From a virus, in the IMG/VR virus record IMGVR_UViG_3300042988_001730, positions 1-24,726 of that record: a stretch of 24,726 nucleotides of DNA; one strand, given 5' to 3'. Under the pieces are notes generated by a model. The model did no database searches, had not been told where the DNA came from, and saw only the letters and a list, made by a program, of their open reading frames with translations. How positions within the stretch are numbered: the stretch's first letter is position 1; every line of letters starts with the position of its first letter. This document shows positions 1,384 through 23,091 of this stretch, one piece after another. Position numbers and translations under genes: made by a program.

Positions 1384-1411
1384 AATTTGTTTAGTGGAGA
1401 GAGAATAGTCT

Positions 1412-1495
1412 ATGACAGCTATCAACAAATATTTTCGGTTTAAAATAGGGCAGATAATTCACGTTTATGGTGACTCAGGGGAAAGTAGGACGTGA
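1412..1495 (+). CDS. Short ORF (27 aa), possibly the displaced N-terminus of the next gene
   Basis: ATG at 1412 is preceded by a good ribosome binding site, GGAGAGAG at 1395-1402 with 9 nt spacing, yet the frame stops after 27 codons (MTAINKYFRFKIG...). The following ORF (1467-1691) overlaps it in the +1 frame and has no ribosome binding site of its own, and a stop lies just upstream of it in frame (1455-1457). One reading is a single gene split by an indel within 1467-1495. The other is a short leader peptide coupled to the next gene. Confidence 0.35.
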   Translation: MTAINKYFRFKIGQIIHVYGDSGESRT

Positions 1496-1691: not shown

Positions 1692-1914
1692 CAACAGCGG
1701 AAAAGCGTATACCAACAGCCTGGTTCTCTCGTTCATTAAGGCCAGGCACGATCGCAATCAAACCCAAGAGCAGGTTGCCGCAACAATGGGGATCCCTCGA
1801 CATGTACTCGCTGATGCTGAGTCTATGCGTATTCACCCATCAGCGAACACGTGCATCAAAATGATACAATACATCACGTCTGGAACTCTCTCGATTTCTC
1901 ACTCCACAAAATAA
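1681..1914 (+). CDS. HTH-like DNA-binding protein (XRE/Cro-like), small
   Basis: 77 residues from ATG 1681, chosen because GGGAGGGAG lies directly upstream; an in-frame ATG at 1639 has no such signal. Residues 27-66 (QTQEQVAATMGIPRHVLADA followed by a second helical segment) fit the helix-turn-helix pattern of XRE-type regulators: T-Q-E-x-x-A, then a G-I-P turn and a recognition helix. The match is short and the usual following helices are diverged, so the call is tentative. It lies immediately upstream of the non-coding region with two inverted repeats, which makes local regulation plausible but unproven. It could instead be a small structural or anti-repressor protein. Confidence 0.5.
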   Translation: MQNNNSGKAYTNSLVLSFIKARHDRNQTQEQVAATMGIPRHVLADAESMRIHPSANTCIKMIQYITSGTLSISHSTK

Positions 1915-2012
1915 CCGCATTCTTCAATAATCCACGCCACTTTTCCACTTCAATATTCCACAATCCCTCTCTGCCTCTTGTTTTTCTGTACATTATTTTA
2001 TAGTCTAATCTA

Positions 2013-2069
2013 TTGAGCGTTAAAAACTTATACCTAATTTGATTGCAGCCTTGATCTTAAAACGCTCAA
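2013..2069 (+). repeat. Inverted repeat 1 (9-bp perfect arms, 39-nt spacer)
   Basis: Arms TTGAGCGTT (2013-2021) and AACGCTCAA (2061-2069) are perfect reverse complements. The spacer is long for a protein operator, so an RNA stem with a large loop is the likelier form. No U-tract follows the right arm. It lies 12 nt upstream of a second inverted repeat of similar geometry. Confidence 0.5.
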
Positions 2070-2081
2070 AAATGATAACTG

Positions 2082-2139
2082 CGTGAGCCCTGGTAGATTC
2101 TCCATTAAAAAATAATTATTATTTATTACAGGGCTCACG
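2082..2139 (+). repeat. Inverted repeat 2 (11-bp perfect GC-rich arms) abutting the RBS of the next gene
   Basis: CGTGAGCCCTG (2082-2092) and CAGGGCTCACG (2129-2139) are perfect reverse complements flanking a 36-nt AT-rich spacer. The spacer itself contains the palindrome AATAATTATT (2111-2120) and could extend the stem. The right arm ends two bases before the Shine-Dalgarno AGGAG (2142-2146) of the gene at 2152. A stem here could influence ribosome access, mark a processing site, or act as a terminator/attenuator. It has no downstream U-tract, so a classical intrinsic terminator is unlikely. Confidence 0.55.
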
Positions 2140-2151
2140 AGAGGAGACTAT

Positions 2152-2349
2152 ATGAGTGACGAAATAACTACGGCAATAACAGATAGCGCAAAAGGCCCGA
2201 AACGGGTGAAAGACCAGCAAATTGAGGTAGAACAACACAGTTTATATGAACAAATTGCTGTCGATAAATACATTGCGGGGAAAACGGCACAAACAAAAGC
2301 TCATCGCGGGTTGAAAATTAGTAAAGGGGTTGCTCCATCGTCAAAGTAA
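2152..2349 (+). CDS. Small head protein preceding the portal (gpW-position protein)
   Basis: 65 residues. The pattern resembles the short proteins encoded between terminase and portal in lambda-like head modules: an acidic N-terminus, then VEQHSLYEQIAVDKYI, a Lys/Ala-rich helix, and a short C-terminal strand ending ISKGVAPSSK. In lambda this position holds gpW, a head-tail connector, but I cannot show homology to gpW, so only the position is used. It has a very strong ribosome binding site (AGAGGAGACT) right after inverted repeat 2. The next gene starts 53 bp downstream. Confidence 0.6.
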   Translation: MSDEITTAITDSAKGPKRVKDQQIEVEQHSLYEQIAVDKYIAGKTAQTKAHRGLKISKGVAPSSK

Positions 2350-2402
2350 AGTTTGTAAGCTTCTAAGTGTAGCCGAGAGAAATAAATATAGAAATACTAA
2401 AT

Positions 2403-3857
2403 ATGGAAATACTAATATCTCCTCCAAAAAATAAGCCTCGAAAGACGATTCTTTCTCAGACAAACCCGCTCGCTAATTCCCGACAATACATCAAAGCCAA
2501 ATACGATGCAGCCCAAACCACGGACGATAATATTAAGCATTGGGCTGAATCCGATAGTTGCTCACCGGATTACGCAAACTCTCCTTGTATTCGTGATGTT
2601 TTACGTCGTCGCGCAAGGTACGAAGTCGCTAACAACTGTTACGCGAAAGGCATGGTCAAAACTCTTGCAGATGACGTTATTGGTACTGGCCCTCGGCTCC
2701 AAATGCACACTGATAATCCAGAATTGAATGCACAAATTGAAAAAGATTTTACCTCCTGGTCAAGAAAAATTAAATTCGCAAAAAAACTCAGAACAATGCG
2801 AAAAGCGCGGTGTGTTGACGGAGAGGCGTTTGCTATCTTGTTTACGAATCCAAAAATAAAACATGCAGTTAAACTTGATTTAAAGTTGGTCGAGGCCGAG
2901 AGAGTATGCGATCCTTATATCAACACCACGGCAGACCCTTTAAATATTGACGGAATCGTTTTAGACGAATTCGGAAACCCGACAAAATATTATGTTTTAA
3001 ATTATCATCCCGGAGACGGCTGGTATTTTTCGTCAAAAATAGACGACTACACCCCTGTCAATGCCGAGTCGGTAATTCACACTTTCGTACAGGATAGACC
3101 AGAACAACATCGGGGAGTATCAGAGATTCTTCCAGCTCTTCCACTCCTCCCATATACCCGAAGGTTTACACTTGCGACAGTTTCAGCAGCAGAGGCGGCA
3201 GCCTGTCAAGGGGGAATACTTTATAGTGACGCCCCTCCCTCCACGGACGAAGACGTACAGCCCGAAGCCATGGACAAAATTTATCTCGAACGGAATTTGT
3301 TTACGACCGTGCCAGGGGGATGGAAGCTCGGACAACTAAAAGCAGAGCACCCGAATGCACAATATTCTGAGTTTAAACGTGAACAAATATCGGAAACGGC
3401 ACGCCCATTATCTATGCCTCTCAATGTCGCTGCTTGTGATAGCAGCAGGTACAACTACGCTTCGGGCCGTCTCGACCATCAGATTTACAATAACTCGAAC
3501 AAGATTGACCAAGATGATACTGAAATTGACGTACTCGATAGGGTTTTAGAAGCATTTTTCAACGAGTATATGTACACAAACACAGGCGTTTTTGATATTG
3601 ATATTGAAGATCATGAATGGCATTGGCCTGGCAAAGGAGATATTGACCCAGAGACGGAGGCAAAAGCGGCCGAAATTAGACTTAGGACAATGACAAGATC
3701 GTACGCTGCTGAATATGCCTCGCAAGGCAAGGATTGGGAGACAGAATTTCAACAGATAGCAAACGAAAAAAACAGAATGAAAGAGCTGGGGATAACAGTA
3801 GAAGACGTCACAAATCAACGGAATAAGGTAATTAATCAAGCAAAAGAAGGGGTTTGA
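2403..3857 (+). CDS. Phage portal protein, lambda family
   Basis: 484 residues, close to the lambda portal (533). Characteristic features are the N-terminal RRRARYEVANN segment with a following GMVKTLADDVIGTGPRLQ, typical of lambda-type portals, then DGEAFAILF and VEAERVCDP. The central segment runs ESVIHTFVQDRPEQHRGVSE and then AAEAAACQGGILYS. In this family twelve copies form the channel at the head vertex through which terminase pumps DNA and to which the neck attaches. The stop overlaps the region of the next start, and GAAGGGG inside its last codons is the ribosome binding site of the downstream gene. Confidence 0.9.
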   Translation: MEILISPPKNKPRKTILSQTNPLANSRQYIKAKYDAAQTTDDNIKHWAESDSCSPDYANSPCIRDVLRRRARYEVANNCYAKGMVKTLADDVIGTGPRLQMHTDNPELNAQIEKDFTSWSRKIKFAKKLRTMRKARCVDGEAFAILFTNPKIKHAVKLDLKLVEAERVCDPYINTTADPLNIDGIVLDEFGNPTKYYVLNYHPGDGWYFSSKIDDYTPVNAESVIHTFVQDRPEQHRGVSEILPALPLLPYTRRFTLATVSAAEAAACQGGILYSDAPPSTDEDVQPEAMDKIYLERNLFTTVPGGWKLGQLKAEHPNAQYSEFKREQISETARPLSMPLNVAACDSSRYNYASGRLDHQIYNNSNKIDQDDTEIDVLDRVLEAFFNEYMYTNTGVFDIDIEDHEWHWPGKGDIDPETEAKAAEIRLRTMTRSYAAEYASQGKDWETEFQQIANEKNRMKELGITVEDVTNQRNKVINQAKEGV

Positions 3858-3859
3858 GG

Positions 3860-5824
3860 ATGGCAAAAACAAGTGGAATGGCATACGGGGGAGGGAAATT
3901 GAAGCAATGGTGGTCAGAATACCCTCTTATTATTGACCTTGAATCTTTACGCTTTGCGTCGCAAATTCCTCTTTTGCTCGACCACTTTGTATCAACTGAT
4001 TCCAGAGCTGGCATTGTTACAGCAAAAATTTTGGCCGGAAAAGTCTATATTGACGGTGAAATATTATCTGAGAGCGAAAAAGTAAAGGATGTAAAGTTAC
4101 AGGCTAGCAAAAAGAATGGAGAGTGGCAGCTTTCCGTAAGGACAGACATAAACGATGTGCCAGAGTTGGTGAAGGAAGGGATTCGGAGAATAAACAATCA
4201 GGATCACCAGGCACCTTTTTATCATGTTAGAAACGCTCTACTGCGTGAGGTTTCTATAACCCCTCTTGGGGTAGACGGCGAGACACGCCTTACAATCACG
4301 GCATCAGAAAAAAACAAAGATACCGCGAACCAGAATTTATTTAACAGTCTTTTTTTTAGTTTCAGCGGAGAAATAAATATGGCTGATGACAACAAAACAA
4401 ACACTCAACCTGCTCCGACTTCAACACCAATTCCTCAACCACAGCTGCCTCAACACGATGATAGCGCTGTGATAGCGAAGGCGAAAGAAGAAGAGCGGGC
4501 AAGGGTGATCGAGATAAAAAAGCTCTGTACAGATTATCCAGACATTGAGGCTTCTGCAATATCCGAAGGTTGGAATACTGAAAAAACGGCAAAGACCGTG
4601 CTTGCAAAAATCAGAGATGACCGGGCAAATGTCAGCAAGATTCACGCCCCAAATATTGTATCCCCGATTGGGAATTCATGGCAAGAATTGCAATCTGGAA
4701 TTACTGCGTCTCTGTGTCTACAAGCAAGCGTTCCAGGTGAATCATTGCACAGAAAATATGGCGACAAAGTAATGGAATTCGCCGACAAACACAGAAATAT
4801 CTCGCTTAGAGAAATCTGTATTATTTGTGCAAAAAACGAAGGGAAAAATGTTTTCGAGTACGGTTTTGGAAATGAACAGATTGTAGCTGCATTTTCAACA
4901 GTAAGTTTACCTGGAATCCTTTCAAATGTAGCCGAGAAGGCGCTCATGATGGCGTTCGGGGCTGTCCCTGGAATTGCTCGTATACTCTGTACAAAAGGCA
5001 GTCTGAGCAATTTTAAGACAAGCGAACGGTACAGGCTGAACATCAACGGAGACCTCGAGCAGGTTGCTCCCGACGGACAACTTAAAGACGCAACCGCAGC
5101 CGAAGATAAGGCAACAAATAAACTCGAAACGTACGGGAAGGCGTTTTCTCTAACTCGGCAAATGATCATCAACGATGATCTCGGCGCTTTTCTCGCTATC
5201 CCTCGCCAGCTCGGAGCAAAAGCCGGGTACAAGGTCGAGGATCTTTTTTTCTCTCATCTTCTTGGCCATGCGCAAGGCCCAACAATGGAAGATAATGTCA
5301 GGCTTTTTCACGCCGCTTCGCACTTAAACTATCAGACAGGCGTAAGCACAGCTTTGGGATACCAATCTTTTGCAAACGCAATTCAGTATTTTTTGCAACA
5401 AAAACAGCCTGACACAAAATCTATGAACGTACCTCCAAGGTTTCTTGTAGTCCCAACAGAGCTTTACATGTTGGCCTTACAATTAACCAAAGGAAATGTG
5501 TTGATTGCGAAGGGGTTTGACCCTAGCGCTGATTTCCAGGCAAACTTAAATCCCGCAAGCGAAATGGGCATTACAGCAGTCCAAAGCGCAAACTTTTCAA
5601 ATAGTAACTATACAGGTTATTCCACAAAGGCGTGGTATCTGTGGGGTGATCCACGAATGATTGAAACAATCGAGATAGGGTATCTCGACGGACGTGAAAC
5701 CCCGACGCTTGCAGAGGGGAAGCCAGACTGGAGAACACTCGGTTATTATTTCATTATTTTCTTTGATTGTGGCGTTAGAGTACAGGAGTACAGGGGCCTC
5801 CAGAAAAACAAAGGCGAAGCCTAG
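3860..5824 (+). CDS. Prohead protease-major capsid protein fusion
   Basis: 654 residues from ATG 3860 (GAAGGGG 7 nt upstream; a TTG at 3854 is less likely). Residues ~1-150 look like a prohead protease: IPLLLDH (His42), a GEIL strand, EWQLSV (Ser92) and LREVSITPLGVDGET, matching the His/Ser arrangement of U35-type head proteases. Residues ~174-260 are polar and Pro/Gln-rich then helical, like a scaffold or delta region. Residues ~340-650 resemble Mu gpT-type head subunits (AFSLTRQMIINDDLGAF, IPRQLGAKAG). Such proteins cleave the scaffold and form the capsid shell. Fusions of this kind are known in phages. The junction carries a T8 run and an internal start with a ribosome binding site (see separate entries), so two products are likely. 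Confidence 0.85.
   Translation: MAKTSGMAYGGGKLKQWWSEYPLIIDLESLRFASQIPLLLDHFVSTDSRAGIVTAKILAGKVYIDGEILSESEKVKDVKLQASKKNGEWQLSVRTDINDVPELVKEGIRRINNQDHQAPFYHVRNALLREVSITPLGVDGETRLTITASEKNKDTANQNLFNSLFFSFSGEINMADDNKTNTQPAPTSTPIPQPQLPQHDDSAVIAKAKEEERARVIEIKKLCTDYPDIEASAISEGWNTEKTAKTVLAKIRDDRANVSKIHAPNIVSPIGNSWQELQSGITASLCLQASVPGESLHRKYGDKVMEFADKHRNISLREICIICAKNEGKNVFEYGFGNEQIVAAFSTVSLPGILSNVAEKALMMAFGAVPGIARILCTKGSLSNFKTSERYRLNINGDLEQVAPDGQLKDATAAEDKATNKLETYGKAFSLTRQMIINDDLGAFLAIPRQLGAKAGYKVEDLFFSHLLGHAQGPTMEDNVRLFHAASHLNYQTGVSTALGYQSFANAIQYFLQQKQPDTKSMNVPPRFLVVPTELYMLALQLTKGNVLIAKGFDPSADFQANLNPASEMGITAVQSANFSNSNYTGYSTKAWYLWGDPRMIETIEIGYLDGRETPTLAEGKPDWRTLGYYFIIFFDCGVRVQEYRGLQKNKGEA
4350..4357 (+). 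other. T8 homopolymer at the protease-capsid junction; possible slippage site
   Basis: Eight T residues encode the end of the protease region (codons CTT TTT TTT AGT). One extra T, or a -1 slip on the run, makes the next codon TAG, which ends the protease at once. A capsid start with its own ribosome binding site follows 20 bp later. This is the layout of two separate genes fused by loss of one T, or of a slippage-regulated fusion. Confidence 0.5.
4379..5824 (+). CDS. Internal in-frame start for the capsid (plus scaffold-like N-terminus) product
   Basis: ATG 4379 is in frame with the fusion gene (its residue 174). It is preceded by GCGGAG (4365-4370) with 8 nt spacing, a better ribosome binding site than those of several genes in this window. 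Initiation here would give a 481-residue protein, MADDNKTNTQPAP..., made of a polar Pro/Gln-rich and helical N-terminal region followed by the gpT-like shell domain. In many phages head protein and scaffold are made from nested starts, as in lambda C/Nu3. This product would let capsid protein be made in excess over protease. The ribosome binding site is seen directly; its use is inferred. Confidence 0.55.
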   Translation: MADDNKTNTQPAPTSTPIPQPQLPQHDDSAVIAKAKEEERARVIEIKKLCTDYPDIEASAISEGWNTEKTAKTVLAKIRDDRANVSKIHAPNIVSPIGNSWQELQSGITASLCLQASVPGESLHRKYGDKVMEFADKHRNISLREICIICAKNEGKNVFEYGFGNEQIVAAFSTVSLPGILSNVAEKALMMAFGAVPGIARILCTKGSLSNFKTSERYRLNINGDLEQVAPDGQLKDATAAEDKATNKLETYGKAFSLTRQMIINDDLGAFLAIPRQLGAKAGYKVEDLFFSHLLGHAQGPTMEDNVRLFHAASHLNYQTGVSTALGYQSFANAIQYFLQQKQPDTKSMNVPPRFLVVPTELYMLALQLTKGNVLIAKGFDPSADFQANLNPASEMGITAVQSANFSNSNYTGYSTKAWYLWGDPRMIETIEIGYLDGRETPTLAEGKPDWRTLGYYFIIFFDCGVRVQEYRGLQKNKGEA

Positions 5825-5877
5825 AATCTTTATTTAGAAAATTAAACAAAAGTAAATTTTGATAAGGATAAAAGTGT

Positions 5878-6615
5878 ATGACAAAAGAATTAACTTATGT
5901 ACAGCAGGGGTGGGATATTGATTATACTCCTGGGAGTGCTGTAGATGCCGGCGATTTGGTGTCGCAGGGGTATTTACATGCCGTAACGCATTTGGACATT
6001 GCCGCGAGCGCACTCGGAGCCGTGCATATCCAAAACCTTTATGATTGCCTCAAGGAGGCCACGACAGACACTTATACCGCTGGGGATCTTGTGTATTGGG
6101 ATGCGACGAATGCATACGCAACCAAGACCCCAACAAATCGTTTTCTTGGGATTTGCGTTTTGGCAGCCACAGCCACAGCGACAACCGTCCGTATTCTTCT
6201 TTTTCCGACCTTTCCCCCAATGACTTACGTTTCGGAGACGTTTGCTCGGGCTGCATTTACCGATGGCCTTGGCACATCAGGATATGTTGATTGTGCGACG
6301 GCAAATAAATTGCCAGCCAAATGCGTTCCGTTAGGATGGATAATCGTTGTCGGGACAGGATTTACAGGAGACACGACCGCCGTTGTTCAAGTCGGAGTTT
6401 CTGGAACTACCGATAAATTTTCAATCGTAACGACTGAGTCCGTGCTTGCAGCGGGCACGATTGGTTGTTTTCCTGGAAAAGCTGCGACAAACATGTTTAT
6501 TGCCTCCGCTACAACGTGGCGTGTGACTGTCACAGGGGCAGCCGATTTTACATCAATAAGTGCAGGAAGCCTTACAGTATATCTATTCTATCGACCTGTT
6601 GGTGTTCCAATTTAG
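5878..6615 (+). CDS. DUF2190-type capsid decoration (cement) protein with extra C-terminal domain
   Basis: 245 residues. Residues ~1-110 match the DUF2190 pattern: a WDIDYTPGSAVDAGDLV opening, LDIAASALGAVHI, then AGDLVYWDATNAYATKTP and FLGICVLAA. DUF2190 proteins are small capsid-surface or cement proteins encoded just after the capsid gene, as here. Residues ~120-245 are an additional Thr/Gly/Val-rich beta domain that ordinary DUF2190 proteins (about 110 aa) lack. This could be a surface-exposed decoration or a second structural domain. The ribosome binding site is AAGGATA before ATG 5878. A 53-bp AT-rich spacer separates it from the capsid gene. Confidence 0.7.
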   Translation: MTKELTYVQQGWDIDYTPGSAVDAGDLVSQGYLHAVTHLDIAASALGAVHIQNLYDCLKEATTDTYTAGDLVYWDATNAYATKTPTNRFLGICVLAATATATTVRILLFPTFPPMTYVSETFARAAFTDGLGTSGYVDCATANKLPAKCVPLGWIIVVGTGFTGDTTAVVQVGVSGTTDKFSIVTTESVLAAGTIGCFPGKAATNMFIASATTWRVTVTGAADFTSISAGSLTVYLFYRPVGVPI

Positions 6616-6624
6616 GATAAAAAC

Positions 6625-6972
6625 ATGACTGACTTATTCTCGATAGGTTCGACCTGGTTAGAAACTCAAAGATTGTCTCATTTAGTACAGACTGTCGATT
6701 ATGTTGCAGGGGATACGACATATAGTAGTATCTCCGCGACCCGCAGTTTAACAAGGGTGAAGGGGCTCGATGCGTACGGGAGAGTTATTTATATCGTACT
6801 TTTTGATTTTCTCGTAAAGGCATCGAGCATCATAACGCCGGCCTCTGGGCATAGGATTACTGATGGGACACAAACTTTTGAGGTTCTAGCAATGGGGGAA
6901 ACTGGGCGTTGTTGGGAATGGTCAGATTACAACAAACTGGTGTATAGAATACATACAAAGGAAATTATATAA
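6625..6972 (+). CDS. Putative neck / head-tail joining protein
   Basis: 115 residues in the position of head-completion or head-tail adaptor genes, between capsid decoration and tail terminator. A long N-terminal helical region is followed by a compact beta domain: IITPASGHRITDGTQTFEVL, then a WEWSD segment and YRIHTKEI. This resembles the small beta-barrel head-closure proteins of siphophages. The call rests on position and fold-like pattern, not on a diagnostic motif. The stop is immediately followed by the next ATG. Confidence 0.5.
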   Translation: MTDLFSIGSTWLETQRLSHLVQTVDYVAGDTTYSSISATRSLTRVKGLDAYGRVIYIVLFDFLVKASSIITPASGHRITDGTQTFEVLAMGETGRCWEWSDYNKLVYRIHTKEII

Positions 6973-7404
6973 ATGGCCTTATCTCTTTTAGTCGCAGATG
7001 CTGTAGTAGATGAAATAAATTCGCAGCTATGGAGTTATGGGATTTCATCAGCGACTAGGGATTTTAGGCCGGTTTCAGGGCTAAAAGACCTCGAAGATCA
7101 AAAGATTACAGTGATCCCAACAGGGGTCAAAAGTGAAAAAATGACGCGGGGTGTCATTGACAACGAGGTTGAGGTCCAAATTGGAATACAAAAAAAATTC
7201 GATGAAGAGGATGAGTGTGATGATTTAACGGAGTTACTTGAAGAAATCGCTGGTTATTTTTTAGGAAAAACTTTAACGACATATTCATCAGCAATTTGCC
7301 TGAAATCTCAAATTGATCCTCTTTTTTCTCCTGAGCATGTTGACGCATTAAGGACATTTACTGGGGTTATAACATTAACTTTTAAGGTTCCACAAAATGG
7401 TTGA
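6973..7404 (+). CDS. Putative tail terminator / tail completion protein
   Basis: 143 residues; ATG abuts the preceding stop (TAAATG). The sequence begins with a helix (VADAVVDEINSQL) and continues with strands giving KITVIPTGVKSEKMTRG, then VEVQIGIQKKF, a helix (DDLTELLEEIAGYFLG) and a terminal strand TGVITLTFKV. This order matches gpU-like tail terminator proteins, which cap the tail tube and bind the head neck. Its place between the neck gene and the HEFGG-type protein fits. The last 8 bp overlap the next gene. Confidence 0.5.
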   Translation: MALSLLVADAVVDEINSQLWSYGISSATRDFRPVSGLKDLEDQKITVIPTGVKSEKMTRGVIDNEVEVQIGIQKKFDEEDECDDLTELLEEIAGYFLGKTLTTYSSAICLKSQIDPLFSPEHVDALRTFTGVITLTFKVPQNG

Positions 7405-7807
7405 ATTGCAGATAAAAGTTAAAACGAAAATCGATTATAACGACCTCAATAGACGCATAAAAACAGGGAGTCTGAATGCGTTGGGGCATGCTGGGGGAAT
7501 AATTAGAAAAACGGCTCAAAGATCGATTCAACAAAGAAAAGATAAGACAATTTTTTCAATGCCTGGGCAACCACCATTTACACATGCTGGTAATCTCAAA
7601 AACGCTATACGGTATGAGGTGGATAAACAAAAAGAAGTAGTAAGGATTGGCCCTACTTTTACCGGGATTGGACTGATTGGGCATATACAGGAATTTGGAG
7701 GAAATTATACACGAGGGCATTACCCTCCAAGACCGTTTATGAAACCTGCCCTCGATAAAATAGCGAATTTATTACCGAATTTATGGGCAAATTCCATAAG
7801 GGGCTAA
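7397..7807 (+). CDS. HK97 gp10-like neck / tail-joining protein
   Basis: 136 residues. The hallmark is IGHIQEFGGNYTRGHYPPRP followed by FMKPAL: HK97 gp10-like and related minor tail or joining proteins carry the equivalent H-x-x-EFGG and a P-x-R-PF(M)-x-PAL ending. An N-terminal helical half contains AGGIIRKTAQRSI. These proteins sit at the head-tail interface of siphophages. The start overlaps the terminator gene. The next gene begins 4 bp after the stop. Confidence 0.65.
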   Translation: MVELQIKVKTKIDYNDLNRRIKTGSLNALGHAGGIIRKTAQRSIQQRKDKTIFSMPGQPPFTHAGNLKNAIRYEVDKQKEVVRIGPTFTGIGLIGHIQEFGGNYTRGHYPPRPFMKPALDKIANLLPNLWANSIRG

Positions 7808-12067: not shown

Positions 12068-12877
12068 ATGACAATCTCTGTTGAGGCTTTATTTTTTGAT
12101 CGAAATGAAATCATTAACACTGACGGGGATTATATCAGTGCTGATATTCCCTATCTCGTAATTGGTGCGACAGATGAAAATGAAGCCTTGGCCGAAACTT
12201 TGACGCAAACCCCTGAGACATATGAAAATATTCCTCGTGATACGATAGAGATACAGAACAGAGTTAATAACGAATACTATAAAGTCCTCGTGCGTTATAA
12301 GACCCCCGCAAAATCTGGGGGCGGCGGGGATCTCCCTCAACCGAGCTATTCATTCGACACGAGCGGGGGGACACAACATATAACGCAAAGTATTTCAACA
12401 TCAAAGTATCCAGCTACCGCGAACGACTACAAACAAGCTATAAAAGTAAACGAAAAGGACGTGGAAGGGGTGGATATTACCTTCCCACAGCTTGTTTTTT
12501 CTGAAACACATTATTTCCGTCCTGGGCATGTTTCGCAATCTTTCAAGGTTACATTGGCACGAAAAACAGGGACAATAAATAAATACTCATTCAGAGGGTT
12601 TGACCCTGGGGAGGTGCTTTTTCTGGGGGCTTCAGGACGACGCCAGGGGAACAAATCAAGTGATTTGTGGGAGGTCGAGTATAAATTTGCAGCGGCAGCG
12701 AATATCACGAATAAAGATGTAGGAAACGGAATCATTATAACATCAGCGCGAGGGTGGGATTTTATTTGGATGGAGTACGAAAGCCAAGTAAATACGACAT
12801 CTCTATTAAAAATCCCCAAAGCCGCGTATGTAGAACAGGTCTATGAAGAGTCGGATTTCGGGGCGTTAGGAATATGA
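12068..12877 (+). CDS. Tail-tip structural protein with C-terminal GTINK/ASG domain
   Basis: 269 residues after the tape measure, the position of distal tail or baseplate genes. An N-terminal part (residues ~1-85) contains the helical ATDENEALAETL segment. A central GGG-flexible linker leads to SFDTSGGTQHITQSISTSKY and then a beta-rich domain with KDVEGVDITFPQLVFSETHY, TGTINK, SFRGFDPGEVLFLGASG, DLWEVEYKFAA and AYVEQVYEESDFGALGI. From memory this protein is a fixed member of the late gene cassette in planctomycete-type prophages, with no assigned function. Its C-terminal domain is shared with the 105-aa protein at 866-1183. The stop overlaps the next start (ATGA). Confidence 0.65.
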   Translation: MTISVEALFFDRNEIINTDGDYISADIPYLVIGATDENEALAETLTQTPETYENIPRDTIEIQNRVNNEYYKVLVRYKTPAKSGGGGDLPQPSYSFDTSGGTQHITQSISTSKYPATANDYKQAIKVNEKDVEGVDITFPQLVFSETHYFRPGHVSQSFKVTLARKTGTINKYSFRGFDPGEVLFLGASGRRQGNKSSDLWEVEYKFAAAANITNKDVGNGIIITSARGWDFIWMEYESQVNTTSLLKIPKAAYVEQVYEESDFGALGI

Positions 12878-13695: not shown

Positions 13696-15153
13696 ATGGC
13701 AGAAAACTTATGGTTAAAAGATAATGCCTTGCTTCTTTACAATGATGCTCTCGCATTAGCGGATCATTGTTGCTGTGCTGGCGATGGAGTCCTCTATAAC
13801 ACTATGCTTTGTACAGATATTACTGGATCTGTGTTTTCTGAAACTACCTACCCACCAAATTCATTTACACGTGGTCAAATTTTTACCTTAAATGGTTCTC
13901 CAAGCGGTATGGATTTACCCCCTACAAACGGGTTTTTACTTATTCCTGCAATCGCAGACTGTTCGAAATATTGGGTAATCGGGAAAAAGACATCGACTGG
14001 CTTAACTAGTGCGTGGTATTGGGACGGCATAAGTTATGTAGAAAAAAATACAGGATTACCAGACTGCTTAAACACTTCTCTTTATAAAGGTTTTTATGAT
14101 TCTGATTCACAAATACAAAGGATGCCAGGGGCATTATATGCAGGGAATCAACAACCAGGATTAATTTTCGGAACGCGATATAGTTGGTATGGGCAGGTAT
14201 CAGATATCCAAGAATGGTATTTCAATATAGCTACAGATACATGGATTCAAGGAGCTATTTACAATTTCATTTCTCCAACTATAATTACAAGCGTTACAAA
14301 GCAATATAAAAACGGTTTGTGGGCTTGTACTTACGATTATTATGATGCAAAAATGTATTTAGCAGGGACGGGGGTTATTCCTGTTCCGAATAGCTTTGAT
14401 CTTGCCAATCAAACTGTTTCAAGCGAAGTCCAAAATCCTCTTTGTCATGCGATTGCTTTCGACAACGAAGAATTATACGCTGCTTCTGCTTATTTATACT
14501 ATCGTGCATTAGATGGAAAGCGATATTGTGGATCTGGAATAGCAAAGTGGAATGGGGCGGCATGGGTAAAATTATGTTTAAGTTGGGAACGTTATTATCC
14601 AGGACTTTTTTCAGATGTTTGGTGGCGTATAGAAAATATCGATGTGAAAGCAGGAAATTGGATTGCAAAAGGAGCGTGGATTATAGGGGGGAGCAATCGA
14701 TCAGCTTCATTGATCGCTTATAATGATTTTCTTACACTTTATAACTGCTTTACAGGGGGAACAGAAAATGCCGCAGGAGCAGTTATTTGTAGAAATTACA
14801 TTGTGACTAATGCAGAAAATAACTTTACGGGATCTGAAGTATTTGATATTGCTGCTCTTTCTTATATACAGTCCTACCCCCCAGGCGAAACTGTGTGGAA
14901 TGCAGAATATGGGTGGTTAGCGCGGCCAGGTGGAAAATCAATTATCTGTCTACATAACATAGAAAAATATGTCCAGGCTGGATATGCCCTGGACAAGGAA
15001 TTTTCTATAGAAACTGCAAAAAGAGCATTAGGAAAAGCATCAGAAGAAGCGGAAACCCTTAAACAATTCGACATAAAAATGATGATCGATAGAGAAATTC
15101 AGCAGCAAAAAATTGATTGGGAAAAGCTCTTTAAACGGCTTAGAGAAAAATGA
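13696..15153 (+). CDS. Predicted beta-propeller virion protein with N-terminal Cys triplet
   Basis: 485 residues. The N-terminus has the motif ALADHCCCAGDG, with three consecutive Cys at residues 25-27. Residues ~50-425 consist of irregular ~50-residue units rich in Trp/Tyr and Gly, such as AWYWDGISYVEKN, EWYFNIATDTWIQG, IAKWNGAAWVKL and a GNWIAKGAWIIGGSN turn. This resembles a Kelch-like propeller. Residues ~430-485 are a charged coiled coil. The position among tail-tip genes suggests a receptor-binding or spike-associated protein with a C-terminal oligomerisation helix. The propeller call rests on repeat character, not on a proven family. ATGA overlap with the next gene. Confidence 0.5.
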   Translation: MAENLWLKDNALLLYNDALALADHCCCAGDGVLYNTMLCTDITGSVFSETTYPPNSFTRGQIFTLNGSPSGMDLPPTNGFLLIPAIADCSKYWVIGKKTSTGLTSAWYWDGISYVEKNTGLPDCLNTSLYKGFYDSDSQIQRMPGALYAGNQQPGLIFGTRYSWYGQVSDIQEWYFNIATDTWIQGAIYNFISPTIITSVTKQYKNGLWACTYDYYDAKMYLAGTGVIPVPNSFDLANQTVSSEVQNPLCHAIAFDNEELYAASAYLYYRALDGKRYCGSGIAKWNGAAWVKLCLSWERYYPGLFSDVWWRIENIDVKAGNWIAKGAWIIGGSNRSASLIAYNDFLTLYNCFTGGTENAAGAVICRNYIVTNAENNFTGSEVFDIAALSYIQSYPPGETVWNAEYGWLARPGGKSIICLHNIEKYVQAGYALDKEFSIETAKRALGKASEEAETLKQFDIKMMIDREIQQQKIDWEKLFKRLREK

Positions 15154-15725
15154 AAATCGATACTATCTCAATATCAAAAAGCATGAATACAGGCCGAATA
15201 TCATGGGAATCGTCGACAAACGACATGAGTTATATCGGGATCAACGGAACCATGCAAGGGCCTATTTTTGGAGAGAGTTTTTCGGACCCTACACAACGAT
15301 ATTTTGATTTTATCTTCGATTCGGAAACGGCAGCCGGGGAAGTACAAGACGTTTCTGATATCACCGAATCGATTTCTCCTATCGAGATAGAGCCAAATAT
15401 AAAGCCTTATATTTCTTGGAATGCTGTTTCTGACGCAGAGCGTTATCGGATTTATCATAAAGAGGGGGTATCAGGGACAGAGGAATTAATCGATGAATAT
15501 CTAGCCGAAACAACGACAGATTATATAATCAGGATAGATGAAGATTTAAATGGAAACGGGGGGATCTGGCATTTTTTTAGGGTTGAAGCAATCGATGAAT
15601 CGGGAAATGAATCGACCAGGGCCTCATGGCGATTCTGGATTTATAATGTGCCGGATGCTATTGCAAATTTAACGGTAGAAAATGGCTCAGGAGCGGGATT
15701 ATTTAACATAACAGTAACTCCATAA
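15150..15725 (+). CDS. Fn3-like tail/fibre protein
   Basis: 191 residues. Residues ~85-170 have the fibronectin type III character: PYISWNAVSDAERYRIYHKE, then TTDYIIRIDEDLNG and WHFFRVEAIDESGNES (the Y/F-x-V-x-A-x-D-x-x-G-N pattern), followed by WRFWIYNVPDAI. Such Ig/Fn3 domains commonly decorate tail fibres and tips. N-terminal residues 1-80 are polar and unassigned, including the ETAAGEVQDVSDI stretch. Coupled to the preceding gene by ATGA; the next starts 13 bp after the stop. Confidence 0.55.
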   Translation: MKIDTISISKSMNTGRISWESSTNDMSYIGINGTMQGPIFGESFSDPTQRYFDFIFDSETAAGEVQDVSDITESISPIEIEPNIKPYISWNAVSDAERYRIYHKEGVSGTEELIDEYLAETTTDYIIRIDEDLNGNGGIWHFFRVEAIDESGNESTRASWRFWIYNVPDAIANLTVENGSGAGLFNITVTP

Positions 15726-16998: not shown

Positions 16999-17904
16999 GT
17001 GGCTGCAAAGAGCGGAAATTTAGCTTTGTTTGATTCAAGATTTTCCATTACGACAGAAAATCTATCATTAAGTGATTCAAAGACTTTTGAATATTTAGAA
17101 AATCTATCTTTACATAATTCCCATTTTATTCCTACGTCAAAAAATCAATCAATTTTAGATTGTGCAGGGAAATTAGATTATAAAAATCTCTCTCTGTCAG
17201 ATGCCCGCTTTACTGCACAATCTAAAAGTCTTTCTTTGTTTGACAGTAGATGGGTAGGGACTTTTGCCCTCAATCATAGCTTGCTAGATTCTCGTATAGA
17301 AGGGACGACTTCCAAGAATCTAAGCAAGCTTTCTTCTTTCTATACAGCCGGATACAATATTTATGCGCTGGATATTGCAACCGGAACAGAGGCGTTGCTT
17401 GGTTTCCTGGATGCTTCAGGGGCTCTCGTGCTTACAGATGAAGCGCTTGCAGATGGGACTTATGAACTGACTTGTCGGTCAGTATCCCTTTTTTGGGATA
17501 ATTGCAGGGATGGAAAAAAACTCACGGTGACCATTTCTGGGGGGGTAATCACGAGTCAAGGCCTGCCTCGCATACTAAACCTCAGAAGGGAGTTTTCCAG
17601 ATTTACGCCATATTTAAAGTGGACTATAGAAGACGAATATACACTAGAAGATATTTCTTTTGCAATTTGGCTTTCTAACAGTACTCCGGTAAGCACTGTA
17701 GGAACACCGGATTATACCTGCCAATATTGGGCTGGGCAGGCCGATTATACATATAAATATACTCAATCAGCGTCAAAGTATATATTGGTGGCTGCCAGAA
17801 CAACAACCACTATCGGGCCGACAACAGAAATATATTGCGCATGGGATAGCACGTCTCCTACAAGTCCTTCGAACCAACTTGGACGAGATGAAGAGGACGT
17901 TTGA
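16999..17904 (+). CDS. Fibre-like protein with eight 14-residue repeats
   Basis: 301 residues, starting at GTG 16999 (GGAG at 16988-16991, three bases after the previous stop). Residues ~6-118 are built from eight consecutive units of about 14 residues with consensus NLSLxDSRF: NLALFDSRF, NLSLSDSKT, NLSLHNSHF, NQSILDCAG, NLSLSDARF, SLSLFDSRW, NHSLLDSRI and NLSKLSSFY. This regular period suits a beta-helical or triple-stranded fibre shaft. The C-terminal ~180 residues form a separate domain with LADGTYELTCRSV, ITSQGLPRILNLRREFSRF and a CAWDSTSPTSPSNQ tail, similar to other proteins of this cassette. Likely a tail fibre or its linker. The stop overlaps the next ATG by one base. Confidence 0.6.
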   Translation: MAAKSGNLALFDSRFSITTENLSLSDSKTFEYLENLSLHNSHFIPTSKNQSILDCAGKLDYKNLSLSDARFTAQSKSLSLFDSRWVGTFALNHSLLDSRIEGTTSKNLSKLSSFYTAGYNIYALDIATGTEALLGFLDASGALVLTDEALADGTYELTCRSVSLFWDNCRDGKKLTVTISGGVITSQGLPRILNLRREFSRFTPYLKWTIEDEYTLEDISFAIWLSNSTPVSTVGTPDYTCQYWAGQADYTYKYTQSASKYILVAARTTTTIGPTTEIYCAWDSTSPTSPSNQLGRDEEDV

Positions 17905-18167
17905 TGATTGGGGAAAAACAAAAAATAAAAATAGAAAAGCTTATTAATCTTTTTGAAGATTACAATTCTTTAAATCAATTAGACATAAGGAATATCGAGC
18001 TTGTTACGGATTGTGAATATCTTAAAAATTTTCCTGCTATTGGGGATGAAGAAATTGAGCTCAACGAATTTGCTGGATTATCAGTCTTTTGTATTTTAAA
18101 AGATATGTATATAAATTATAAAGGGGAAAAAAATGGATCAACATCAGGAACTCAAACAACATCTTGA
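17904..18167 (+). CDS. Small hypothetical protein
   Basis: 87 residues from ATG 17904, chosen over the TTG at 17901 because it forms a TGATG overlap with the fibre gene stop and has AAGAGGA upstream. It is helical and acidic (KIKIEKLINLFEDYNSLNQL, then VTDCEYLKNF), with no membrane segment or recognised motif. It is the first gene of a block that departs from virion-type composition. The last 35 bp overlap the next gene. Confidence 0.5.
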   Translation: MIGEKQKIKIEKLINLFEDYNSLNQLDIRNIELVTDCEYLKNFPAIGDEEIELNEFAGLSVFCILKDMYINYKGEKNGSTSGTQTTS

Positions 18168-18579
18168 AAATTTTTCTAAAACAGTCACGGCATTATCCGA
18201 AACAAAACCAAAATCGGGAACACCTGAATGGCTAACTCCCGATATTCTTTCTGCGATGGTGATGGCATTTCAAGCGGTTATGAGTCTTTTAGCAGGGCTT
18301 TTCTCTCGATCAAAAGGGCTTTTCGATATCGGCAGCGAGGCCATGACAGGATTAAAACTTTTGGCTGAAAATCAGGTAAAACAGACAGCTATTCTTGAAA
18401 AGATACTCGCACACCTGGAAAGCACGTGCCTTAAAAAAGAGGATGCCCAAAAAATGCTCGAAACACTATCAACCAGCATCGCGGATAATGTTACGGCTGG
18501 CATCCCTGGACAAATTATTAGAGCGATGGAAGGATACGAGATAAAAACAGAACCTATGAAATTAGTCAGGAAGCCATAA
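18133..18579 (+). CDS. Helical protein with a central hydrophobic segment
   Basis: 148 residues; ribosome binding site AAAGGGGAAA. A polar N-terminus (~residues 1-35) is followed by ILSAMVMAFQAVMSLLAGLF, which could be one membrane or amphipathic segment. Long helices follow (LKLLAENQVKQTAILEKILA, EDAQKMLETLSTSIADNV), probably coiled coil, and a basic tail (KLVRKP). Similar layouts occur in phage membrane-anchored or tail-associated helpers, but I recognise no family. It ends one base before the next ATG. Confidence 0.5.
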   Translation: MDQHQELKQHLENFSKTVTALSETKPKSGTPEWLTPDILSAMVMAFQAVMSLLAGLFSRSKGLFDIGSEAMTGLKLLAENQVKQTAILEKILAHLESTCLKKEDAQKMLETLSTSIADNVTAGIPGQIIRAMEGYEIKTEPMKLVRKP

Positions 18580-18768
18580 ATGGATTTCCTAGAGTTTATT
18601 CAAAAATATGTACGGACGGAAGCCCAGGCAGATGCGAAAGCCTGGGGGAATAGGGCCGGCTTGGAACGTAGACAGGCAATTATTCATGTGTGTCAGCAAT
18701 TAGAAACGAGGGTAAACGATGTCAGAAGAAATAACGGCTCAGGGGCCGGAAACTGCAAAGATAAATGA
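18580..18768 (+). CDS. Small basic hypothetical protein
   Basis: 62 residues, starting immediately after the preceding stop. It is helical with mixed charge (FLEFIQKYVRTEAQADAKAW, then GLERRQAIIHVCQQLETRV) and a short disordered tail. It has no motif I recognise. The last 50 bp overlap the membrane-protein gene in another frame, so its expression is tied to that gene. Confidence 0.45.
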   Translation: MDFLEFIQKYVRTEAQADAKAWGNRAGLERRQAIIHVCQQLETRVNDVRRNNGSGAGNCKDK

Positions 18769-19195
18769 AGCTCTAAAAATGATCGAGCAGGATGAAGAAA
18801 TGAAAAGTTCGAAGCGATTATCTTCGAAACTCGAACATAGTGCGGAAACAAACTCTCTTGAACATCTTTTATCAGAACAGCCCCAAGAAGATTCTGTTAT
18901 CTTCGATGAAACAGGGATAAGGAAACAAATTCCTCTCGGCCCTATTAAAATCTATGATTTTATGAGCAGCTCTTTTAACATCGTCCTGGCTAATACTGTA
19001 CTTTCAGTCAGTCTTTTTTTTAGTGTAATCGTGATCACGCTTTTAACCTGTCCTTTCCTTTACACTGTCCTTTTTTCTGTTTTTGCGATATTTGCTAGTT
19101 TTTGTAGCATAATAACGAATTTAAAGCTTTTAAGTTTGATGTGGAAACACCAAAAAAACATGGTTGGGAACAGGTTTTCTTTACCCCCTGTATAG
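18719..19195 (+). CDS. Two-TM membrane protein upstream of the GAF-kinase-caspase genes
   Basis: 158 residues; ATG 18719 with GAGGGTAAAC upstream. Residues 1-80 are charged and helical (INEALKMIEQDEEMKSSKRL), predicted cytoplasmic. Two hydrophobic segments follow at ~87-109 (NIVLANTVLSVSLFFSVIVI) and ~112-133 (PFLYTVLFSVFAIFASFCSI), then a short basic C-terminus (MWKHQKNMVGNRF). With both ends inside, the long N-terminal region would face the cytoplasm. It ends 7 bp before the GAF gene, so it may anchor or be regulated by the downstream signalling proteins. No family is recognised. Confidence 0.6.
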   Translation: MSEEITAQGPETAKINEALKMIEQDEEMKSSKRLSSKLEHSAETNSLEHLLSEQPQEDSVIFDETGIRKQIPLGPIKIYDFMSSSFNIVLANTVLSVSLFFSVIVITLLTCPFLYTVLFSVFAIFASFCSIITNLKLLSLMWKHQKNMVGNRFSLPPV

Positions 19196-19202
19196 GTGAT
19201 AC

Positions 19203-20048
19203 ATGGCCTTTTTGCGTAAAATTTTGCAGATTAAGCCTGAATTAAAGAGTGAAGATATTCCTTTAAAACAAGAACAGGTTGATCTTGGAGAAGGCCTCGC
19301 TCTTATATTTCCTACAGGGCAGGGGGAATATCGGTTATGTTCGTTTCAGAAAATTGAATACTGTGGAAAAGAATTTACAGGGTCAAAAATACTCGAACAT
19401 AACGCGGCAATCCGGCTCCCGAACGGACAAATATACCTGTTTAAAGATGATGAATCTCAAGTTGCATGGCGTGAAAAAATAGAGGCCTTTATCATCTGTA
19501 CGGAATTAGAGAGTCAGTTTGCCCCTGAGACGCTGAAAGCCCTGAAAGCAAAATACCTCGATGAATATTTAGATAAAGGAAAGCATGAGGAATCTGTTGA
19601 GCAATTGGCTGCCAGGTTAGTCTATTATACGCGTAAAAAATGGAAATTCGAACGGGCGATTTTTTATACTTTCGATGGGCAAAAGGCCGTCCCTCTGGTA
19701 GCTAAAGCTCCCGAAAAAGAATACAAAACAAGCATGAAAATATTATTACAGGCCTATAAAACAAAAGGCCCTGTGAAATTTAATCTAAAGGAGTCCGCAT
19801 GTTCAAGCCTTTCAATTATCGAAAATAAAGTTCAAATTGCATTTTGCAGTCCGATTTTTTCTCAGGGAAAAGCTGTTGCTCTTTTTTATGCGGATGCTGG
19901 GAAAAAAGTACATGATTACGCCATGATCGGCCTGGCTTATCTTTGTTCGGATTTCGGGCATAGGTGGGGAAAACTGAGAGAAATGACAGAGTTAAAAACG
20001 ATAGATTTAGAGGCGGAAAATGGACGAGAAGAAACAGAAAACATATAA
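19203..20048 (+). CDS. GAF-domain sensor protein
   Basis: 281 residues. Residues ~128-258 fit a GAF domain: an N-terminal helix (EQLAARLVYYTRKKWKF), strand RAIFYTFDG, a central helix, then SLSIIENKVQIAFCSPIF and GKAVALFYADAGKKVHDYAM. The S-I-x-x-x-V-x-x-A-x-C-x-P-(x)-GKAVALFYAD series is the typical GAF core as seen in FHA-GAF and cyclase-linked sensors. GAF domains bind small ligands or mediate dimerisation and signal to partner enzymes. Residues ~25-95 form another beta-rich module (GEYRLCSFQKIEYCGKEF, then RLPNGQIYLFKDD); I looked for FHA signature residues and did not find them. It is cytoplasmic (no signal or TM). The kinase gene overlaps its end by 29 bp, so the two are made together. 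Confidence 0.65.
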   Translation: MAFLRKILQIKPELKSEDIPLKQEQVDLGEGLALIFPTGQGEYRLCSFQKIEYCGKEFTGSKILEHNAAIRLPNGQIYLFKDDESQVAWREKIEAFIICTELESQFAPETLKALKAKYLDEYLDKGKHEESVEQLAARLVYYTRKKWKFERAIFYTFDGQKAVPLVAKAPEKEYKTSMKILLQAYKTKGPVKFNLKESACSSLSIIENKVQIAFCSPIFSQGKAVALFYADAGKKVHDYAMIGLAYLCSDFGHRWGKLREMTELKTIDLEAENGREETENI

Positions 20049-21075
20049 AGAAATATTAAACGCATATTTCGCTTCTAGGCAAATGCGTAATGGAATATGG
20101 GTATTGAATGACGCGGACTATCTTGAAGATATGGCAAAATGCTGCGGGAAAAATTTCGAGGCCAGATCATTTTTGAGCATGGGAAGTGAAGCTATTTTGC
20201 TTCTTGTTTTTGACAAATTTCTCAAGGTCTGCCGGGTACTAAAAATTCCTAGGCCTGATCTCCCGGAGGTCGCTCTTCGGCGTTTTATCCGAGCGGCGCG
20301 GGTCCTTGTACAACTTGAAAGCGAGTATTTTCCAAAAGTTTGCCAATTAAGCTTGACCCCTTTTTTTCTTGTTCTCGATTGGACAATCGGCGACACCTTG
20401 AGAGACTGGGTTTTTTCTGACAGATGGTATCCAGATGCTCTTATTGATATTTTTCGAGAATTGCTGAGGGCCATGACGCTACTACACAATCAGGGAATTA
20501 TTCATCGAGATTTAAGACCTGACAATATTCTTATATGCAAAGAAAACAGAATAAAAGTGATCGATTTTGGTTTTGCAAAATGCCAGGAGAGCAGCCGGCT
20601 TACGGTCATAGAGGCCCTTGGAAATGAATTCTATTCCAGCCCTGAGCAGCTTACACATGCCGGGGATGTAAAATCCCCGTCAACGGATGTTTTCTCATTA
20701 GCTCAAGTTTTTTATTTCGGCATAACTAAACTCGAACATAAACCAGGGGATCATAAACCAGAAATTCTTATAGAAAGGGGTCTTCCTTCGAAGATCCTAG
20801 ACTGGTATAGTGCCAGTACACGATTTAACGCAGATGAGCGCTACACGAACGCAGAGATAATGCTCCGGGCATATAACGAGATATTCCCTCCTCCTCTTGT
20901 AACAAAACAAGAACACGGGGATATATACGATTTAATAGATTCTTTAATTTTGCTTACCGGGGGGGATCAGTACTTTGCTGAGGTTTTCACATCAAAATTT
21001 CTCTCCAGACAGCAATTAGCTAAACTGTGGAAAACATGTTCGGAAAGAAGGGCAAAATTATGCATATCCGAATAA
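20020..21075 (+). CDS. Eukaryotic-type Ser/Thr protein kinase (Hanks type)
   Basis: 351 residues. Visible kinase motifs: a degenerate Gly loop (FLSMGSEAILLLV), the ATP lysine in CRVLKIP (Lys75), the catalytic loop IHRDLRPDNIL (Asp164, Asn169), the metal-binding IDFGFAK (Asp182), SSPEQ (Glu209) and the subdomain IX aspartate in STDVFSLA (Asp223). All core catalytic residues are present except the alpha-C glutamate. The usual R-F-x-x-E-A reads RRFIRAAR, giving Ala92 at that place. Residues ~1-45 and ~290-351 are extra helical regions. The C-terminal tail (DLIDSLILLTGG ... LSRQQLAKLWKTC) may be a protein-interaction module. No TM segment. RBS GAGGCGG lies inside the GAF gene. Overlaps the caspase gene by 16 bp. 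Likely an active kinase working with its neighbours. Confidence 0.88.
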   Translation: MDEKKQKTYKEILNAYFASRQMRNGIWVLNDADYLEDMAKCCGKNFEARSFLSMGSEAILLLVFDKFLKVCRVLKIPRPDLPEVALRRFIRAARVLVQLESEYFPKVCQLSLTPFFLVLDWTIGDTLRDWVFSDRWYPDALIDIFRELLRAMTLLHNQGIIHRDLRPDNILICKENRIKVIDFGFAKCQESSRLTVIEALGNEFYSSPEQLTHAGDVKSPSTDVFSLAQVFYFGITKLEHKPGDHKPEILIERGLPSKILDWYSASTRFNADERYTNAEIMLRAYNEIFPPPLVTKQEHGDIYDLIDSLILLTGGDQYFAEVFTSKFLSRQQLAKLWKTCSERRAKLCISE

Positions 21076-21878
21076 AAAAAGAAATTGCGCCGGCGCAATT
21101 TGTAAATCAACAGCCAGAATCCAGGACAATCGTACACGCTAAGAGAAGAGCTATCAATATTGATCCTAATAAAATTGGGGTACTCATAGTTGGAATCGGC
21201 GAATATCCAAATCCAACATGGCGCCTCTATAAACCTGTTAGCGACGCAATTTCTTTTTTCAAATTCCTCGAAAATATGTACAACATTCCTCCACAAAACA
21301 TCCGCAGTCTTTATAATGTAGAAGCGACGAAATTAAATATTATTACTACCCTGCGGGCGTTAGTAAAAACTTTTAGATATATCGTTTTTTATTTTTCGGG
21401 GCATGGGTTCAGGGTCGTAAACGCGGACGGTGATGGGGGATGGGCAGAGGGAATCGTATGTTATGACCATGCCTGGGCTCGTGCTTGTATGGTGTTAGAT
21501 GAAGATATTAGATCTGTGCTTTGTGATGCGAAGAGGGCCTGGGTAGTTGTCGACGCCTGTCACAGTGCCGGGATTACGAGAGGGGACGGGCAAACTCGGG
21601 TAAAATCGATACGAGGGCCGGATACCGGAGTCAGACTAGGAAAAAGAACGATAATACATTGCAAAGATATCGTCGAATTGGCGGCATGTCAAAGCTCTGA
21701 AGTTGCGTACGAATTAGATTCGGGAGGAATTTTTACAACTACATTGATCGATCTTTTACAACATAGCCCATGTATGAGTTTTTTAGAATTACAAATAAAA
21801 TTACGTGAAAAAATACGTATGCAGACCCCTCAAATTTCTGCTCCTGAAATGGATTTAACTATGTTCGAAATGAACTAG
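21060..21878 (+). CDS. Caspase-like cysteine protease (peptidase C14 / metacaspase type)
   Basis: 272 residues from ATG 21060, chosen for the GGAAAGAAGGG upstream at 7 nt spacing; GTG 21027 and ATG 21036 are weaker. The catalytic His is in IVFYFSGHG (His115) and the catalytic Cys in WVVVDACHSAG (Cys167), the order and spacing of C14 proteases. Other family marks are GVLIVGIGEYP, the DA-x-x-F-x-x-F-L helix, GWAEGIVCYD before the large-subunit strand, and the VELAACQSSEVAYE and GIFTTTLIDLL blocks of the p10-like part. The N-terminal ~35 residues are basic and unassigned. No signal peptide or TM, so it acts in the cytoplasm. It overlaps the kinase gene by 16 bp, suggesting kinase-controlled proteolysis. 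A fibre gene starts 13 bp after the stop. Confidence 0.85.
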   Translation: MHIRIKKEIAPAQFVNQQPESRTIVHAKRRAINIDPNKIGVLIVGIGEYPNPTWRLYKPVSDAISFFKFLENMYNIPPQNIRSLYNVEATKLNIITTLRALVKTFRYIVFYFSGHGFRVVNADGDGGWAEGIVCYDHAWARACMVLDEDIRSVLCDAKRAWVVVDACHSAGITRGDGQTRVKSIRGPDTGVRLGKRTIIHCKDIVELAACQSSEVAYELDSGGIFTTTLIDLLQHSPCMSFLELQIKLREKIRMQTPQISAPEMDLTMFEMN

Positions 21879-21891: not shown

Positions 21892-23091
21892 ATGACTGAT
21901 ACATATAAGATTGTGCCAGGCGGAGCAATTAATTTTGCGCTTGCCTTTGGTGCGGCTGATACGACGAAAAACGTGATACTCGAACCGAGCGAGGTAGAAA
22001 AACTCTACCCGTACATTTACCGTGGGTTTGTCGTTATCCCTAATTGGACTAACGTGGTAACACTCACGGTTGCATTCACTGATGCCGCTGACGGAAACTC
22101 GAAAAACCTTGATTCTGATGCAGGATTGGCACAAAATGGAACAAGGGAAATAACTACGCTTACTGTTGAAGTAGCAGAGCCAATCACGTGTACATTAACT
22201 CTGTCTGGGGCTCCTGGGGGGGCTGGGGGAACGATCTATTGCACGTTCTACAGCACAGAAAATGCGAGTGGTGCAAGCTCGAGTCTGGGCCCTGTCGTCG
22301 CAATATCAGATATCGCCAAAATTGCCGGGGTCGTTCCTCAAATGGATTCGACAGACCGGCTCGCTGTGAGTGTTTACGGGAAAAATGCCGCGAGCGGCGA
22401 TACAGAAATACATGTTGCTGCGGATGGCGATGTGCAGGTAGACGTAGTTTCGACTACGAGCGACGCGATTCTCACCACGATTGACGCCGACACCGGGAGT
22501 ATCGCTACAGATGCGAGCACCATAGCGGGCGCAATCGCAGGGTCAGAAATGCAGGTCGATGTCGTTAGCACCACGAGCGACGCGATTTTGACAACGATAG
22601 ATTCGGATACCTCGGCCCTAGCCGGTTGTGTGGGTGGTACAGAACTTCAGATAGATGTAGTTTCGACTACGAGCGACGCGATTCTCACCACGATTGACGC
22701 CGACACCGGGAGTATCGCTACAGATGCGAGCACCATAGCGGGCGCAATCGCAGGGTCAGAAATGCAGGTCGATGTCGTAACAACACCTACCCCTCATGTT
22801 ACGACGGTACAAGCGGTAATTGACATGGTCGGGAGTGGTACAAACCCTTCAGAAATAGATTCTTCCGCAATGGAAGAATTACACGTGTATGTAAAAAAAG
22901 AATTCCGATGGTGCTTTGCTGCTAATCAAACAGCGGCAAACACGACAATCGCCAGTGATACAACAAGCGGCGTGTTACCTCCTGGCTACTGGCCCTTCGT
23001 CACAAAGGGCGCAACGTTAAAATTTTACATACGGAGCAATGATACAAATGCTCTAACGGACGGAATTACTTACTGGAGTGGGGAGGAATAG
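21892..23091 (+). CDS. Tail fibre-like protein with internal tandem repeats
   Basis: 399 residues; strong ribosome binding site GAGGAGATAA. An N-terminal beta domain (residues ~1-130; GGAINFALAFGAAD, then VVIPNWTNVVTLTVAFTDAA) is followed by a short linker and ~120 residues of repeats. Each repeat has a DVVSTTSDAILTTIDADTGS strand-helix pattern with spacer SIATDASTIAGAIAGSEMQV, typical of phage fibre shafts that trimerise. A first and third copy are DNA-identical over 122 bp with a diverged copy between them. The C-terminal ~110 residues form another beta domain ending DGITYWSGEE. Presumably a receptor-binding or fibre component. It follows the caspase gene directly, so the signalling block sits inside the fibre operon. 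Confidence 0.6.
   Translation: MTDTYKIVPGGAINFALAFGAADTTKNVILEPSEVEKLYPYIYRGFVVIPNWTNVVTLTVAFTDAADGNSKNLDSDAGLAQNGTREITTLTVEVAEPITCTLTLSGAPGGAGGTIYCTFYSTENASGASSSLGPVVAISDIAKIAGVVPQMDSTDRLAVSVYGKNAASGDTEIHVAADGDVQVDVVSTTSDAILTTIDADTGSIATDASTIAGAIAGSEMQVDVVSTTSDAILTTIDSDTSALAGCVGGTELQIDVVSTTSDAILTTIDADTGSIATDASTIAGAIAGSEMQVDVVTTPTPHVTTVQAVIDMVGSGTNPSEIDSSAMEELHVYVKKEFRWCFAANQTAANTTIASDTTSGVLPPGYWPFVTKGATLKFYIRSNDTNALTDGITYWSGEE
22444..22565 (+). repeat. Direct repeat copy A (122 bp, identical to 22657-22778)
   Basis: The 122 bases starting GTAGTTTCGACTACGAGCG are repeated without mismatch 213 bp downstream (71 codons, in frame). Synonymous positions are unchanged, which indicates a recent duplication or gene conversion. 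Confidence 0.85.
22657..22778 (+). repeat. Direct repeat copy B (122 bp, identical to 22444-22565)
   Basis: Second perfect copy. Between the two copies (22566-22656) lies a related but diverged unit (encoding TSDAILTTIDSDTSALAG), so the array has three units, two of which were recently homogenised. Confidence 0.85.

Follow-up and report, generated by a model that had tools for sequence, protein, structure and literature searches.

Bacterial conflict and cell-death systems are already known to include caspase-like proteases and degenerate kinases. The locus examined here raises the question of whether a tailed phage carries two such proteins, together with two neighbours, as a module with a joint role. 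The window, by which we mean the whole stretch of 24,726 bases that was analysed, is an IMG/VR record that represents a fragment of a tailed phage and covers its structural part, encoded on the + strand. An initial annotation, made from the letters of the DNA, had proposed a GAF sensor, a kinase relay and a caspase effector encoded as one cassette inside a tail-fibre operon.

The phage fragment and the place of the cassette

The structural genes of the window matched the terminase large subunit, portal, a protease-capsid fusion, a cement protein, a head-tail joining protein and the tape measure, and a head maturation protease is encoded within 3854-5824. From 12068 on, the genes run head-to-tail with short gaps or overlaps. 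Relatives in IMG/VR and genome contigs reached 41% identity for the capsid and about 50-54% for the portal. One contig (L002) was identical to positions 1-7595 of the window and added 1.8 kb upstream; it stops short of the cassette. The best 80 genome loci found with portal or capsid came mainly from assemblies of Planctomycetota (notably Phycisphaerae), Lentisphaerae and Kiritimatiellae. The host probably belongs to this group, an assignment that is likely rather than certain because the assemblies of the relatives are nearly all metagenome bins.

Gene order was common with the relatives up to about 13.7 kb. Beyond this point no gene of the window, in the cassette or elsewhere, had a recognisable counterpart in related phages, the generic kinase domain excepted, and the cassette therefore lies in a variable zone. 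Its genes and their neighbours are as follows.

15150-15725: gene with a weak tail match (phrog_31, E 0.0016), the last such gene upstream of the cassette
18133..18579, + strand: 148-aa protein with one hydrophobic segment (residues 38-56), directly upstream within this gene run; it may or may not belong to the module
18580..18768, + strand: ORF of 62 aa that overlaps the 5' end of the 18719 gene; it may or may not belong to the module
18719..19195, + strand: protein with two putative membrane helices, 158 aa (ORF, hydropathy)
19203..20048, + strand: 281-aa protein, the "GAF" protein of the initial annotation (ORF; GAF-like by pattern only, about residues 129-260)
20020..21075, + strand: Hanks-type kinase-fold protein, 351 aa (Pfam Pkinase, E 6.8e-23)
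21060..21878, + strand: single-domain caspase-like protease (C14), 272 aa (Pfam Peptidase_C14, E 1.4e-17)

The last four ORFs, the 7-bp gap between the first two of them and the successive overlaps of 29 bp and 16 bp agreed exactly with the initial annotation. The likely start of the caspase ORF is the ATG at 21060, the mechanical start being a GTG at 21027. A purine-rich stretch lies upstream of each of the four genes, codon usage in the cassette was similar to that of the phage core genes, and no excess of promoter-like or terminator-like sites was found in the cassette region. Tight coupling, location on one strand and phage-like codon usage suggest that the cassette is co-expressed with the late genes. 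An assembly chimera is a possible source of the cassette, but the phage-like codon usage and the gene packing speak against it. That the surrounding genes form a tail-fibre operon is plausible, as a point that we infer: the last tail match upstream is the weak one at 15150-15725, and the genes on either side of the cassette received no functional assignment.

Several other features of the window were recorded. The product of the gene directly after the caspase (21892-23091) contains internal repeats that are nearly identical to one another (DVVSTTSDAILTTIDADTGSIATDASTIAGAIAGSEMQV and its variants), a feature seen in fibre-like proteins, and its PHROG matches were weak only. KNLSLSDSR-type repeats are present in the N-terminal part of the product of 16999-17904, which had no family match. 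A search with a DNA pattern near the window end gave unrelated contigs only. Downstream of the terminase gene, a 105-aa protein (866-1183) matches the same related-phage proteins as the tail gene at 12068-12877 (e.g. L129:433-1242) and may be a partial paralogue of it. The interval between terminase and portal (1184-2402) is a 1.2-kb gap, mostly non-coding, with one small ORF (1639-1914) whose product resembles a helix-turn-helix regulator by eye.

Families and catalytic residues of the four proteins

The caspase-like protease, a protein of 272 aa, scored 64.6 bits against Peptidase_C14 (cut-off 21.4), and its His115 (21402-21404) and Cys167 (21558-21560) form an intact dyad, both residues standing in invariant alignment columns. 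By profile and dyad it is a predicted caspase-like peptidase of family C14, as had been proposed. The nearest PDB sequences are metacaspases, and the PADLOC caspase model also matches in the cassette.

A motif-based scan recovered caspases in at least 29 viral contigs (L011-L039). The viral proteins are mostly single-domain ORFs of 243-306 aa, a form from which most host proteins found differ. Like those of the 29 IMG/VR contigs and LR745208.1, the window caspase consists of a single free-standing domain (about 280 aa) that carries the HG and DxCHS motifs. A tree was built from 69 sequences, 25 of them viral, and in it 21/25 viral caspases fell in one supported clade together with five host sequences and one plasmid sequence, the bootstrap being not fully settled. 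Unlike them, the window caspase stood outside this clade; its branch is long, it has no close relative among the 69 and its exact place is unsure owing to long branches. None of the single-domain viral caspases compared has a kinase nearby. The other viral caspases have neighbourhoods so mixed that they point to no function; some of these caspases lie near endolysin, amidase or tail genes.

The kinase fold was likewise borne out, the 351-aa protein scoring 81.8 bits against PF00069 (Pkinase; cut-off 31.7). In 388 genomes of the phylum to which Lentisphaerae and Kiritimatiellae belong, its best matches had about 25-40% identity, and its residues were compared with those of 28-31 relatives from the same genomes. 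The ATP-binding Lys75, the catalytic (HRD) Asp164, Asn169 and the DFG Asp182 are kept, as are Glu209, Asp223 and Arg274. The alphaC glutamate is lost (Ala92, versus Glu in 28/28 relatives), and so is the catalytic-loop lysine (Arg166, versus Lys in 31/31). The glycine loop is degenerate, two of its three glycines being lost, with Ser53 and Ala58 where most relatives have glycine. Pseudokinases typically lack the alphaC glutamate and the glycine loop, although kinases that lack single motifs can be active. Phosphorylation cannot be assumed, because the protein lacks residues that are kept in every relative compared; its residues point to a pseudokinase or a weak kinase and not to a clear relay. 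PADLOC kinase models such as PD-T4-6 match the kinase domain, and these matches are generic for the fold. Elsewhere, a different kinase is encoded at L193:1-2130, on a related phage or prophage contig, where it lies upstream of portal.

In contrast to the kinase fold and the caspase, the GAF domain proposed for the product of 19203-20048 was statistically unsupported. The 281-aa protein had no match in Pfam, PHROGs, NCBIfam or PADLOC even at loose thresholds, and no meaningful match among PDB sequences. With a purpose-built GAF profile made from 30 likely-host domains, and with 1000 shuffles of the protein as decoys, it scored 2.9 bits and ranked 6 of 1002; with an FHA-GAF profile it ranked 5 of 1002 and was outscored by 4/1000 shuffles. 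Structure predictions (AlphaFold, no alignment) gave pLDDT values of 34 and 43, a very low confidence that is too poor for comparison. Residues 202-228 resemble, by eye, the conserved C-terminal GAF strand pattern, which may be taken as a hint. They follow the S...C.PI...D GAF pattern of the FHA-GAF proteins of Planctomycetota and relatives, from which the 281-aa protein differs in that it is not significant by profile and has no recognisable FHA domain. No relatives of it were found in phage records or in 172 likely-host genome searches, the latter run without a positive control.

For the 18719 protein, hydropathy indicated a soluble N-terminal half followed by hydrophobic segments at about residues 88-132, which fit the two membrane helices proposed earlier. 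It belongs to no family in Pfam, PHROGs, NCBIfam, PADLOC or PDB, and the searches made found no relatives.

Recurrence of the gene set and its possible explanations

According to the initial annotation, a dedicated system would be doubtful if the cassette were absent from related phages, and in part this is what we observed: it was absent from the related phages searched. Profile searches found a kinase at none of 29 viral caspase loci, and a caspase in 0/91 related phage stretches and 0/80 prophage stretches. When 45 related phage records were searched over their whole length, there was no caspase (0/45) and a single, unrelated kinase (1/45). IMG/VR single-protein scans returned no close relatives of the caspase, the 281-aa protein or the kinase. 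Among host caspase loci, one of 37 had a kinase nearby, in loci covered for no more than about 1.5 kb on either side. A kinase in a related record (G010; L128:8078-9118) was considered as part of a homologous cassette and rejected: it lies on the opposite strand beside nuclease-like genes, with no caspase. Absence is not proof here, because many phage records are fragments and the host caspase loci were covered only over that short distance. Because none of the related phages searched has it, the cassette is not established as a conserved, dedicated phage system. It is real, unusual and apparently rare, and possibly a one-off accessory module.

The reading that we prefer, with a probability of about 0.42, is an accessory caspase module, carried in the late operon, that probably derives from genes of bacterial conflict or signalling systems and in which the four proteins would have a joint role. 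They would be made together and act together. By analogy with bacterial conflict systems, the effector would be the caspase, and the 18719 protein would be a membrane anchor that tethers the module. The kinase-like protein would serve mainly as an ATP-binding or scaffold regulator (a pseudokinase), acting on either the caspase or the 281-aa protein. During infection the protease would cleave a target protein of the host (or of a competitor). This reading is consistent with the overlapping or closely spaced co-directional genes, the strong kinase and caspase profile matches, the intact dyad and the origin of the nearest sampled kinases in likely-host phyla. The lost kinase residues also fit the picture in bacterial conflict systems, where the catalytic residues of most kinase domains are disrupted and these domains have a non-enzymatic role (PMC7159879). 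Regulation by kinase or NTPase domains is thought to occur in complexes with caspase-type effectors (PMC10907252). Against it count the lack of recurrence, the lack of relatives of the 281-aa and 18719 proteins, the failure to find an effector-associated adaptor domain or an NTPase, and a caspase with no close relative. The relay from GAF sensor through kinase to caspase is not supported as first written: the kinase fold and the intact caspase stood, the GAF assignment was statistically unsupported, and several conserved residues of the kinase are lost. A further possibility is a pseudokinase-gated caspase: in a complex tethered to the membrane, a protease that cuts host proteins would be controlled by a degenerate kinase and a sensor, turning a bacterial death machine into a phage tool. 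We regard this as unlikely.

The four genes may instead be unrelated accessory genes that collected singly in a variable stretch of the late operon and serve no joint function. This is rather doubtful, yet the set recurs in no collection searched, other phages have one of the two, caspase or kinase, but not the other, and the whole zone past 13.7 kb is variable. The overlapping starts and stops that join the three larger genes are weak evidence to the contrary, because such packing is normal in phage operons. A moron-type defence cassette, acting by superinfection exclusion or abortive infection, would guard the infected or lysogenic cell from other phages. A precedent is the phage-borne kinase Stk of 933W, which is reported to block HK97 (PMC6356687), and PADLOC kinase models such as PD-T4-6 and the PADLOC caspase model match the cassette. 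The kinase matches are generic, however, no excess of promoter- or terminator-like sites sets the cassette apart as a unit of its own, and this fragment contains no integrase or repressor; a defence role seems quite unlikely. More improbable still is a protease that acts late, in virion processing or host lysis, the two membrane-type proteins then being part of a lysis unit. The place in the late operon just before the repeat-rich gene at 21892, the two nearby genes with hydrophobic segments, and the endolysin, amidase or tail genes near some other viral caspases would suit such a protease. On the other hand, no endolysin was matched in the window, the mixed neighbourhoods of other viral caspases do not favour it, and the phage already has its head maturation protease.

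Relation to known systems

An accessory caspase module of this kind would most resemble the bacterial ternary or effector-associated conflict systems (PMC7159879, PMC8195603), in which a caspase-type peptidase and a catalytically disrupted kinase are likewise encoded by neighbouring genes. GAF is listed there as a possible nucleotide-binding domain (PMC7159879). The window cassette differs from these systems in its location in a phage late operon, and no match to an effector-associated adaptor (EAD) domain, NTPase or vWA was found in any cassette gene or sub-region. For Stk of coliphage 933W, we know of no caspase partner. Stk, which is reported to act in abortive infection against HK97 (PMC6356687), shares with the window protein a phage-carried protein kinase fold and differs from it in neighbourhood and in the degenerate motifs of the window kinase. 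In the literature searched, we found no report of a kinase and a caspase together in a phage late operon. By analogy, the cassette is apparently a variant of known caspase/kinase conflict modules that is new in its phage setting.

If the cassette proteins cooperate, the use by phages of host-type death proteases against hosts or rivals would become directly testable with four small genes. In addition, the single-domain caspases in at least 29 viral contigs, most of which belong to one supported clade, offer an entry to a seemingly unstudied group of phage proteases.
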